DNA from: Rhodobacter sp.
Lineage (GTDB): Bacteria > Pseudomonadota > Alphaproteobacteria > Rhodobacterales > Rhodobacteraceae
Direction: 5' to 3'
Assembly (NCBI GenBank): GCA_013821825.1
Contig: PNJK01000007.1
Span: 31,456-95,455 of the forward strand
Length of the DNA stretch: 64,000 nt
The position numbers and the translations under genes are program-made. Positions within the stretch are counted from its first letter, which is position 1. Each line of letters starts with the position of its first letter. The notes beneath the pieces are model-generated. The model had not been told where the DNA came from. It ran no database searches and saw nothing but the letters and a program-made list of their open reading frames with translations. Positions 56,037 through 61,286 of this stretch are shown here, in pieces.

Positions 56037-56527
56037 GGCGCCAGCCCGTGATAGACCCCCGCCAGCGCCACCGAGCCGATCCCGGCAAAAAGCCCGGCCC
56101 AAAGGTCGTCCAGCATGACCCCCGCCGCATCGCCCCGACGGTCGGCGCGACCGATGATCCAGGGCTTCCAGATGTCGAAGAGGCGGAATAGCACGAACGG
56201 CACCAGCCAGCCGGGCCAGGCGGCCAGCACAAGGTCGGGCACGTCCTGGCGCCACAGCGGGATCACCGTGAAGGACATGGCCAGCCATTGCCCCGCCACC
56301 TCGTCGATGACAATCTCGGGCGGGTCCTCGCCCGGCCGGTCGCGCAGGTATTGCGGCACGGCCCAGAACCCGGCCAGGGTGGCCAGCACGAAGCCGGCCG
56401 GCACCAGCAGGGCAAGTCCCAGCTGGTAGGCCAGCACCGCCAGCCCCACCGCAATGGCCGAGGCCCAGGTGCCAGAGGCTGGCCGCAAGTGCCCCGCGCC
56501 GAAGAAAGTGGCGATCGCCGCACTCAT
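56024..56527 (-). CDS. pgpA: Phosphatidylglycerophosphatase A
   Basis: Removes phosphate from phosphatidylglycerophosphate to make phosphatidylglycerol. The 167-residue membrane protein has [16 protein letters not shown], the signature [12 protein letters not shown] and [11 protein letters not shown], then [12 protein letters not shown] near the end. It starts in an ATGA overlap with the ispDF stop and overlaps the cinA-like gene by 13 bases, so the three genes form one operon. Confidence 0.93.
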
Positions 56528-57642
56528 GACCGCACCAGCGTTGCGGTGGCCAGCGCCGCTATCCCCTCTTCGCGCCCTGTAAAGCCCAGGCGTTCCGAGG
56601 TGGTGGCCTTGACCGACACCCGGTCCGCCTCCACCCGCATGATCCGCGCAAGTTCTGCCTGCATATCAGCGGCATGCGGGCCGATCTTCGGGCGTTCGCA
56701 GACCAGCGTCACATCGCAGTTGGCCAGCCGGTAGCCGGCTTCGGTCGCAAGCCCGATGGCATGGGTCAGAAAGATGTGGCTCGCCGCCCCCTTCCATTGC
56801 GGGTCTGACGGCGGGAAATGCCGCCCGATGTCGCCCATCGCCAGCGCGCCATAGATCGCATCGGTCAGCGCATGCATCCCGACATCGGCGTCGGAATGGC
56901 CGAGCAGCGCCTTGTCATGCGGCACTTTCACCCCGCAGAGCCACACATGATCGCCCGCGCAGAACGCATGCACGTCATAGCCGTTGCCCAACCGCACATC
57001 CATGCCTTGCCCCCGCAGGATCGCCTCGGCCCGGGCAAAATCACCGGGCCAGGTCAGCTTCAGATTGGTTTCCTCGCCCTCGACGATCGCCACGTCAAGC
57101 CCTGCGGCCCGCGCCACCTGCACATCGTCCAGCGCGCCGCCCCGGTGCGCGCGATGCGCCGCCAGGATCGGGGCAAAGCGAAACGCCTGCGGGGTTTGCG
57201 CCCGGTAAAGCCCGGCGCGGTCCACCGTGCCGGACACGATCCCATCGGTCCCCCGCCACAGCGCGTCGGTCACCGCCAGCGCCGGGGCCGCGCCGTCATG
57301 CGTCTCAAGCGCCTCGACCAGCCGCCCGATCAGCGCCCGGCTGACCAGCGGCCTTGCGCCGTCATGGATCAGGACGCGCGTCACACCGGTGCCGGCCAAA
57401 GCCTCCAGTCCCGCAAGGACCGAGGCATCCCTGGCCGCACCCCCCAAGACCAGCCGGACGCCCAGCCCTTCGGCCCGCGCCCTGTCGTCCGGGTGGATCA
57501 CAAGCACCACTGGCAAGCCGGCAAACGCCGCAATCGCATGGGCCAGCACCGGCTTGCCCGCCAGCGGCTGCCATTGCTTCGGCACCTCGCCGCCCATGCG
57601 GCTGCCGCGCCCTGCGGCGGCGATGATCACGGCTGTTGTCAT
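56524..57642 (-). CDS. ispDF: Bifunctional IspD/IspF of the MEP pathway
   Basis: A fusion of MEP cytidylyltransferase (IspD, about 1-215) and MECDP synthase (IspF, about 218-372). IspD has [20 protein letters not shown] and [10 protein letters not shown]; IspF has [39 protein letters not shown] and the end [18 protein letters not shown]. The fusion is common in alphaproteobacteria. ATG 57642 ([11 protein letters not shown]) replaces the track start 57735. It is divergent from dusB, with a palindrome between. Confidence 0.95.
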
Positions 57643-57717
57643 GCGCTGTCCTGTCTTGCGCTTCCTTCCTAGGGCAGGGTGCGTCCTATGACAATCTGGC
57701 GCAAGACCGGGCATATC

Positions 57718-57734
57718 TGCACAAAATTTGTGCA
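57718..57734. promoter_or_regulatory. 17-bp palindrome, candidate NtrC operator
   Basis: TGCACAAAATTTGTGCA is a perfect palindrome (8-bp arms around one base) located 105 bases upstream of dusB and 76 bases before ispDF. It matches the enterobacterial NtrC site TGCACCANNNTGGTGCA at all defined positions except one symmetric pair. Placed before dusB-ntrB-ntrC it suggests autoregulation of the ntr genes; Rhodobacter NtrC site rules may differ, so this is inference. Confidence 0.55.
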
Positions 57735-57838
57735 TCGCATGTTTTTCAGACAGTATGGCGCTGCTATTGCCGGTCTGTTGCCTTGGAGCTTCCCGACGGG
57801 GGCATTAGCTACTGGTTCAACGCACAAGGATTAGGCAT

Positions 57839-58816
57839 TTGCCCGTTACGCTCGGTTCCAGCGATGTGACCCCTCCGGTAATCCTTGCACCTCTGGCGGG
57901 GATCACCGACCTGCCGTTTCGGCGGTTGGTCGCCCGGTTCGGCGCCGGGCTGGTGGTCAGCGAGATGGTGGCCAGCGAAGAAATCGTCCGCGCCCGCCCC
58001 GAAGCACGCGCCCGGGCCGAGCTTGGGCTTGGCGAGCAGGCGACGTCGGTCCAATTGGCTGGACGCGATCCCTACTGGATGGCCGAAGGCGCCCGCTATG
58101 TCGAAGCGCAGGGCGCCCGCATCATCGACATCAACATGGGCTGCCCGTCGAAGCGGGTTACAACCGGGCTTTGCGGCTCGGCTTTGCTGCGCGACCTTGA
58201 TCTGGCGCTGAAGCTGATCGAGGCGGTGGCGCAGGCGGTCAAGGTGCCGGTCACCTTGAAGACCAGGCTGGGCTGGGACGACACGCTTCTGAACGCGCCC
58301 GAACTTGCAAGGCGCGCCGAAGGCGCGGGCGTCCAGATGATCACCATCCACGGCCGCACCCGCTGCCAGTTCTATAAAGGCCGCGCCGACTGGGCCGCGA
58401 TCCGTGCGGTGAAGGACGCTGTCAGCATTCCGGTCATCGCCAATGGCGACATCACCGACAGCGCCTCTGCGCGCGAGGCGCTGCGCCTCTCCGGCGCCGA
58501 TGGCGTGATGATCGGTCGCGGCGCACAAGGCGCACCGTGGCGGCTGGCCGAGGTGGCGCATGACCTTTACGGCACTCCCGCCCCGCAAGTGCCCGGCGGT
58601 GGCGCGCTTGGCCGCATGATCCTCGATCACTACGACGACATGCTGACATTCTACGGCCGCGAACTTGGCCTGCGGATGGCGCGCAAGCACCTTGGCTGGT
58701 ATCTGGAAGAGGCGGGTCTGCCCCATGCCCGGGAAGCCATCCTTACCTCCACCGACCCGGCCGAGGTGATCCTGCTGCTGGAACTGGCCTTTGCCGAGCT
58801 GGAACTGGCCGCATGA
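57839..58816 (+). CDS. dusB: tRNA-dihydrouridine synthase DusB (NifR3)
   Basis: An FMN-dependent enzyme that reduces uridine in the tRNA D-loop. The N-terminus LAPLAGITDLPFRRL, the catalytic-cysteine segment INMGCPSKRV, LKTRLGWDD, ITIHGRTRCQFYKG and VIANGDI are all conserved. It was named nifR3 in Rhodobacter capsulatus because it precedes ntrB-ntrC, as here. TTG 57839 has AAGGA eight bases upstream. Its stop overlaps the ntrB start (ATGA). Confidence 0.95.
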   Translation: MPVTLGSSDVTPPVILAPLAGITDLPFRRLVARFGAGLVVSEMVASEEIVRARPEARARAELGLGEQATSVQLAGRDPYWMAEGARYVEAQGARIIDINMGCPSKRVTTGLCGSALLRDLDLALKLIEAVAQAVKVPVTLKTRLGWDDTLLNAPELARRAEGAGVQMITIHGRTRCQFYKGRADWAAIRAVKDAVSIPVIANGDITDSASAREALRLSGADGVMIGRGAQGAPWRLAEVAHDLYGTPAPQVPGGGALGRMILDHYDDMLTFYGRELGLRMARKHLGWYLEEAGLPHAREAILTSTDPAEVILLLELAFAELELAA

Positions 58817-59910
58817 CGCCCTACCGCCTGCCATATCCGGTGCCAGGGGTCATCTGGGCCTCGCTGCCGTTGCCTGCCCTGCTGCTGGACGCACAGGCCC
58901 GCATCCTTGAGGTAAACCCCGCAGCGGAAACCTTCCTCAACGCATCCGACCGGGCGTTGCGCGGCCAGCCTGCCTTTGACCGGCTGTCGATCGACGCGCC
59001 AATGGACGAGGCACTTGCCCGAGCCCGCGCCAACCAGTCGCCCCTGAACATCAACGATGTCGAAGTGACCACCGGCGAACGCCCGCCTGTCCAATGCACG
59101 ATACATCTGGCCCCCATGCACGATAATCCCGACGTCGTCATGCTGATCCTCAGCCCGCGCGAAATCGCCGACCGGCTGAACCGGTCCATGGGGGTGAAGT
59201 CGGCGGCGCGCTCGGCCATCGGCATGGCCGAAATGCTGGCGCACGAGATCAAGAACCCGCTTGCCGGCATCTCTGGCGCGGCGCAGCTTCTGTCGATGAA
59301 CCTTTCGCCCGAGGATCAGGAGATGACGGACCTCATCGTCGAGGAAACCCGCCGTATCGTGAAGCTTCTGGAACAGGTCGAGCAGTTCGGCAACATCCGT
59401 CCGCCGGACAGAAAGCCGGTGAACATCCATGACGCACTGGACCGCGCCCGGAAGTCGGCGCTGGTCGGCTTTGCGGCGCATATGTCGATCGCCGAAGACT
59501 ACGACCCGTCCCTGCCGCCCACTTTGGCCGACAGCGACCAGCTGATGCAGGTGTTCCTCAACCTGATCAAGAACGCCGCCGAGGCTTGCCGCTCTGGCGG
59601 CACGATCCGGCTGCACACATTCTACGACCTGTCCCTGCGCCTGCGCCGCAAGGACGGGGCCGCCGCCGCCCTGCCGCTGAACGTGGAGATCATCGACGAC
59701 GGCCCCGGCATCAAGCCGGAAATCGCCGCCAATATCTTCGAGCCCTTCGTCTCGGGCCGTGAAAACGGCACCGGCCTCGGGCTCGCACTCGTTTCCAAGA
59801 TCATTTCCGACCATGAGGGCTGGATCACGGTCGATTCCGTGCCCGGTCGCACCGTGTTCCGCGTGTCGCTGCCGATGGCACCCCGCGACAAGAAGAAGGA
59901 TGGCAAGTAA
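58813..59910 (+). CDS. ntrB: Nitrogen regulation sensor kinase NtrB
   Basis: The cytoplasmic histidine kinase/phosphatase that responds to nitrogen status through PII proteins and phosphorylates NtrC. It has an N-terminal PAS domain (about 15-120), an H-box [19 protein letters not shown] (about residue 138), N-box NLIKNAAEA, and G-boxes IDDGPGIKP and [12 protein letters not shown]. The 365 residues fit. It overlaps dusB by 4 bases and ntrC by 1 base, so all three are co-translated. Confidence 0.95.
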
Positions 59911-61286
59911 TGGATGGTACCGTTCTGGTCGCGGATGATGACCGCACGATCCGCACAGTCCTGACCCAGGCCCTGACCCGCGCGGGGTGCAAGGTGCATG
60001 CGACCTCCAGCCTGATGACGCTGATGCGCTGGATCGAGGAAGGGAAGGGCGATCTGGTGATCTCGGACGTGATCATGCCCGACGGCAACGGCCTTGATGC
60101 CCTGCCGCGCATCGCCAAGATGCGTCCCGGCCTGCCGGTAATCGTGATCTCGGCGCAGAACACCATCATGACCGCCATTCAGGCGACCGAGGCGGAAGCC
60201 TTCGACTACCTGCCGAAGCCCTTTGATCTGCCCGACCTGATGAAGCGGTCGTCAAAGGCGCTGGACCAGAAACGCCGCGCGCCGAAAGTGGTGGTGACCC
60301 CGCGCGACGCGGGCGACGATCTGCCTTTGGTTGGCCGCACTGCTGCGATGCAGGCGCTCTATCGGTTGGTTGCGAGGGTGATGAACAGCGACCTTCCCGT
60401 GCTGATCACTGGCGAAAGCGGCACTGGCAAATCGCTGATCGCCCGCGCCATCCATGACTTTTCCGACCGGCGCTCGCTGCCTTTCGTGGTGGCACAGTCC
60501 GCTGATCTGCAGGGCGTCGATGGCCCCTCGACCCTGCTCGCCAAGGCGCGCGGCGGGTCGATCGTGTTCGACGAAGTTGGGGATTACGACGACGACACCC
60601 AGGCCCGGGTTGTCCGGATGCTGGACCTTCTGGGCGACAACGCCCCCCGCATCATGTCGACCAGCCAGGTCGACCTTTCCGCCCGGATGGAGGGCGGCGG
60701 CTTCCGGTCCGATCTTTATTACCGGCTTGGCGGGGTGACCCTGCACGTGCCCAGCCTGCGCGAACGGGTGGATGACATCCCGCTTCTGGCCGAGCATTTC
60801 CTGTCCCGGGGCGAACGTGACATCGGCACCGTCCGGCGCCTGTCGTCCGAGGCGGGCGAGCTGGTGCGCGCCTACAGCTGGCCCGGCAACGTCCGCCAAC
60901 TGGAAAACGCCATCCGCCGGCTGTTGGTCACCGCCTCGGAATCCGAAATCGCCCGCGGCGAGGTCGAGCTGATCCTTGGCAACCAGCCCGCTGCCGAGCC
61001 GCGCGCCGGCATGGGTGTGGCGATGGGCGAAGGCGAAAAGCTGTCTGCCTCGGTTGCCCGGCATCTCAAGCGTTATTTCGACCTGCATGGCGGGCAACTG
61101 CCCCCTCCGGGCGTCTACCAGCGCATCCTGCGCGAGGTGGAAATGCCGCTGATCGAGATCGCGCTGGATGCCACGGCGGGCAATCAGGCGAAATGCGCCG
61201 ACCTTCTGGGAATCAACCGCAATACGCTGCGCAAGAAGATCACCGACCTGGACATTCGCGTCACCCGACGCCGCAAGTTGATGTAA
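59910..61286 (+). CDS. ntrC: Nitrogen regulation response regulator NtrC (lacks GAFTGA)
   Basis: A receiver domain (about 1-120; phospho-Asp in [13 protein letters not shown]) is followed by an AAA+ domain (Walker [17 protein letters not shown], Walker B IVFDEVGD) and a Fis-type HTH ([19 protein letters not shown]). Normal sigma-54 activators carry ESELFGHEKGAFTGA after the first strand; here that loop is absent ([25 protein letters not shown]). Rhodobacter capsulatus NtrC, which is known to activate the housekeeping RNA polymerase rather than sigma-54, lacks the same part. It starts in the stop codon of ntrB. Confidence 0.95.

Follow-up and report, generated by a model that had tools for sequence, protein, structure and literature searches.

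Two predicted NtrC operators, spaced by whole helical turns, at the dusB-ntrBC promoter of Rhodobacterales

A palindrome upstream of dusB-ntrBC in a Rhodobacter genome, here called O1, is very probably an NtrC binding site before NtrC's own operon. Together with O2, a weaker element next to the dusB start codon, it most likely forms an autoregulatory operator pair. We hold with good confidence that O1 would be the main operator of a module in which both elements flank a sigma-70 promoter and NtrC caps its own level. The window, meaning the whole 64,000-nucleotide stretch that was analyzed, carries the following features at this locus:

57718-57734, no strand assigned: O1, the palindrome TGCACAAAATTTGTGCA, a predicted strong NtrC-type site
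57821-57837, plus strand: O2, CGCACAAGGATTAGGCA, a weaker copy of the O1 half-site pattern (one-mismatch match)
57783-57811, plus strand: predicted sigma-70 promoter of dusB-ntrBC (TTGGAG, 17 bp, TAGCTA)
57839-58816, plus strand: dusB (nifR3 family), TTG start, TIGR00737 above cut-off
58813-59910, plus strand: ntrB, best model PRK11073, below cut-off; always 3' of dusB in relatives
59910-61286, plus strand: ntrC without the GAFTGA loop (loop deletion), best model TIGR01818, below cut-off
56524-57642, minus strand: ispDF (fused IspD-IspF), PRK09382 and TIGR00151/TIGR00453 above cut-off, ATG at 57642
57666-57694, minus strand: predicted ispDF promoter, TTGTCA (57694-57689), 17 bp, TAGGAA (57671-57666)

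O1 is a perfect inverted repeat with 8-bp arms and a central A; the symmetry over 17 bases claimed by the sequence-only reading holds to the letter, at exactly those coordinates. Protein-family matches and gene coordinates likewise place it, as had been claimed, between divergent ispDF and dusB-ntrBC, with dusB, ntrB, ntrC and most of ntrY following in that order. The list of open reading frames runs ispDF to an ATG at 57735, adjoining the palindrome, but the conserved ispDF protein start is at 57642; we therefore rejected the longer frame and treat O1 as intergenic, with 75 bp separating it from the ATG of ispDF and 104 bp from the TTG of dusB. Taking dusB transcription to start near 57818, as the promoter at 57783-57811 would imply, O1 would be centered at about -92 for dusB and about -67 for ispDF, counted from the predicted start of each; in most relatives it lies at about -81 from the predicted dusB-ntrBC start. 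Separately, TTGTGC-N17-CAGTAT at 57728-57756 could be a second dusB promoter with its -35 element inside the palindrome, in which case NtrC binding would block it; CATAAT replaces CAGTAT in many members of the genus, the only group in which this arrangement was seen.

The sequence-only reading had pointed to related genomes as the place to look for the motif before dusB, and it is there. We assembled 300 bases upstream of dusB from loci of the genus and from 76 further Rhodobacterales records, 101 loci in all, four of them duplicate species within the genus. With a symmetric 17-column matrix, refined on these same loci so that shuffles flatter it, a 17-bp TGC-N11-GCA element scores above 13 at the O1 place in 96 of the 101 loci (one match, L050, is probably false); the 99.9th percentile of shuffled sequences is 13.7. 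O1 itself has this NtrC-type form, a 17-bp TGC-N11-GCA inverted repeat, in perfectly palindromic version. Variants occupy its place in other genera, for example TGCCTAAAAATTAGGCA, TGATTAAAAAATAGGCA and TGCACAATAATTAGGCA, and a relaxed version of the form fits 69 of 71 dusB sites there. Within the genus, the palindrome region ranks among the best-conserved blocks upstream of dusB.

Such conservation bears on whether O1 could be a chance palindrome devoid of function, an idea that has nothing in its favor beyond the shortness of the element. Allowing up to three mismatches on both strands, the sole match in the window is O1 itself, against a chance expectation of 0.11, and the 4.0-Mb genome holds a single further place, with three mismatches (own-genome counts are pattern searches; the matrix was applied to chosen promoters). 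O1 is essentially unique within this genome and is kept across Rhodobacterales, and on match counts and conservation we rejected chance, which we consider extremely improbable. Two further candidates also fell away: the block beside O1 proved weak and genus-specific and not a tandem second site, and no credible Rfam match to a structured RNA was found at O1.

The distance between O1 and O2 is 103 bp in the window. Start to start, it measures 89-93 bp in 66 of the 75 loci with both elements and 101-103 bp in eight, with one doubtful locus at 60 and none at 94-100 bp; the two classes switch at least seven times on a quick dusB protein tree. As judged from these distances, the spacing of the pair across Rhodobacterales varies in steps of a full helical turn only. 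Because distances are quantized and the classes switch repeatedly, changes in the length of the O1-promoter interval were retained almost only when they amount to about one helical turn. A predicted TTG-N17-TA promoter lies between the two elements at a near-constant distance from O2 in most loci, and since promoter and O2 shift together, the phasing fits looping through O2 and contact with polymerase alike.

O2 covers the predicted dusB transcription start and holds the dusB Shine-Dalgarno sequence AAGGA in its middle, and part of its conservation may be as a ribosome-binding site. Most genera carry TGCACAAGGATTAGGCA at this place just before dusB; matches of at least 12 of 17 positions occur in 77 of 101 loci, compared with 32 of 5050 shuffles; beyond the 17 columns, the start codon is almost the only thing conserved. 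If O2 were mostly a ribosome-binding site, O1 might act chiefly in activation: from about -81 or -92, bound NtrC would touch RNA polymerase and raise ntrBC under nitrogen limitation, and the phase that matters would be that of O1 to the promoter. We take this as a real possibility while leaning against it. Polymerase contact suits the joint movement of promoter and O2 as well as looping does, some members of the genus carry a degraded O2 yet keep O1, and nitrate raises ntrBC in Paracoccus denitrificans (PMC5424462), a response more in line with activation than with repression. In five loci (L051, L065, L069, L074 and L099), by contrast, the O2 half-sites persist although the Shine-Dalgarno core is altered, and NtrC represses its own operon in two other alphaproteobacteria. 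In Sinorhizobium meliloti, of another order (Hyphomicrobiales), NtrC binds the dusB-ntrBC promoter PdusB and represses it; the motif there shares with O1 the form TGC-N11-GCA (PMC10746234). Caulobacter NtrC, which lacks GAFTGA as here but through a different loop deletion, activates glnBA and is a repressor of the operon that encodes it (PMC10274813).

The identity of the ligand was addressed through other promoters. As the dusB matrix had been refined on the same loci, glnB provides the independent test: a matrix built from the 71 dusB sites outside the genus, and from no others, was applied elsewhere and finds a clear site upstream of glnB in 20 of 21 loci of the genus, as a rule 120-126 bp before the ATG; the remaining locus has a weak site. 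In a sample in which a single genome stands for each genus of the family, the glnB upstream region scores above 13 in 26 of 30; in the genome under study it holds both CGCACAAATATTGATCG and CGCATATTAAATGGTCA, 20 bp from each other. The matrix from other genera's dusB sites also finds a site upstream of glnK; like glnB, this gene is an established NtrC target of the lineage, and both carry the motif. A site precedes an ammonium-transporter gene in some members of the genus. Could NtrX or another Fis-type regulator bind instead of NtrC? O1 contains CAA-N3-TTG, an NtrX-type core (of the form CAA-N(2-5)-TTG), and the core, tested as CAA-N(1-5)-TTG, occurs in 18 of 25 sites of the genus; the uvrC targets described below are moreover unaccounted for by nitrogen control. 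Outside the genus, though, the core is present in merely 7 of 71 sites, and the same matrix finds glnB and glnK; we rejected NtrX on the distribution of the core and regard such a ligand as improbable.

Apart from the symmetric pair 6/12, O1 matches the enterobacterial NtrC consensus, TGCACCA-N3-TGGTGCA, just as the sequence-only reading had stated. Enteric sites have C/G at this pair where O1 has A/T, a departure that speaks against the autoregulation model; the enterobacterial glnA-ntrBC operon resembles the O1 locus in its palindromic sites and autoregulation. Enteric NtrC activates sigma-54 promoters, unlike NtrC of the sigma-70 type. The earlier assignment of this NtrC to the sigma-70 (R. 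capsulatus) type is consistent with its AAA+ domain, from which the GAFTGA loop is missing in the window and at every related locus checked, a known state in Rhodobacterales (PMC10274813). NtrC shows lower identity at the five loci whose O1 scores fall under 13 (p = 0.005, relatedness uncontrolled), but its DNA-binding helix is intact there, and the comparison is not decisive for a tie between O1 loss and divergent NtrC.

Since glnB is a classical NtrC target of the lineage (reported for R. capsulatus), mutating the predicted NtrC site of P. denitrificans nasT abolishes regulation, and predicted NtrC sites precede ntrBC (PMC5424462), we infer that NtrC is the best-supported ligand of O1. RegPrecise-predicted Rhodobacterales NtrC sites precede glnBA, amtB, nasTS and ntrBC; the P. 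denitrificans sites (RegPrecise predictions, with nasT tested) come from the same order and are of the same element type, but paired, phased sites such as O1 and O2 are not mentioned in its available sections (PMC5424462). With the P. denitrificans consensus as printed, YGCMNNNNTTNNTRGCA, O1 has three mismatches by inspection, a difference that would count against the model, in a string that may be one base off. NtrC sites before ntrBC are thus already predicted for the order, and NtrC autorepression is already reported in relatives. The phased two-operator layout would be a new detail, not described in the available parts of the relevant literature (older R. capsulatus nifR3-ntrBC papers aside), and may be partly known.

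We propose the following autoregulatory scheme. Phosphorylated NtrC dimers would bind O1, whose center lies some 92 bp before the predicted dusB-ntrBC start, and also the weaker O2, at about +3 to +20 over the dusB Shine-Dalgarno sequence; the two sit on opposite sides of the predicted sigma-70 promoter, their distance set by the helical repeat. Rising amounts of NtrC would fill O2, either alone or bridged to O1, and block transcription, so that NtrC would limit its own abundance; O1 by itself may activate. The S. meliloti, Caulobacter and P. denitrificans reports would all be accommodated if O1 activates and O2 represses. More tentatively, and with less than even confidence, we suggest that Rhodobacterales ntrBC promoters carry two phase-locked operators, about 92 or 103 bp apart and the second around the ribosome-binding site, from which a GAFTGA-less NtrC would silence the operon that encodes it through a repression loop, acting like a classical repressor and not as an enhancer-binding activator. 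The layout of two operators, a promoter between them and whole-turn spacing offers a testable arrangement for sigma-70-type NtrC autoregulation, and lets one ask how, lacking the sigma-54 loop, an enhancer-binding protein turns transcription by the housekeeping polymerase up or down.

O1 might also serve the divergent ispDF promoter, alone or in addition, tying isoprenoid synthesis to nitrogen status. The predicted ispDF promoter is conserved across loci as an ATTG[TC]...TA arrangement on the minus strand, and the gap between its -35 element and O1 is 12-15, 19-25 or 33-34 bp (here about 23 bp), which looks stepped. The stepping is similar to that toward dusB but looser, a second operator was not seen on the ispDF side, and we came across no account of NtrC acting on ispDF; we consider this role unlikely.

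In the genome as a whole, nine places lie within one mismatch of the pattern, O1 and O2 among them. A one-mismatch site on contig 15 of this assembly (locus L115, 1838-1854 of that locus) is upstream of a gene starting MNKKVAVIGAGPSGLAQLRAF, by eye a trimethylamine monooxygenase, and also near a glutamine-synthetase-like gene and amtB-like fragments; it is likely a nitrogen-source target. A PII search shows no glnK in this assembly, and amtB is present just as broken pieces (contig 15:3638-4589), unlike in relatives, likely owing to an assembly gap or frameshift. In several members of the genus (L148, L155, L166 and L170), a circularly permuted ATP-grasp gene (named by eye) has NtrC-type sites at its start or close to it.

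The matrix also indicates an unexpected target, uvrC, which is not an obvious nitrogen target and as such counts against the autoregulation model. No credible Rfam match to a structured RNA was found before uvrC. The conserved DnaA-box-like TTATCCMCA that adjoins the uvrC site suggested a replication origin; we rejected this, as sampled GC skew in two complete genomes shows no switch at uvrC. The site itself is present in 24 of 24 loci of the genus, 164-179 bp upstream of uvrC (L227-L251, the genome under study being L251), and in 30 of 30 further genera of the family, mostly 168-214 bp upstream (L253-L282), and is more regular there than before glnB.
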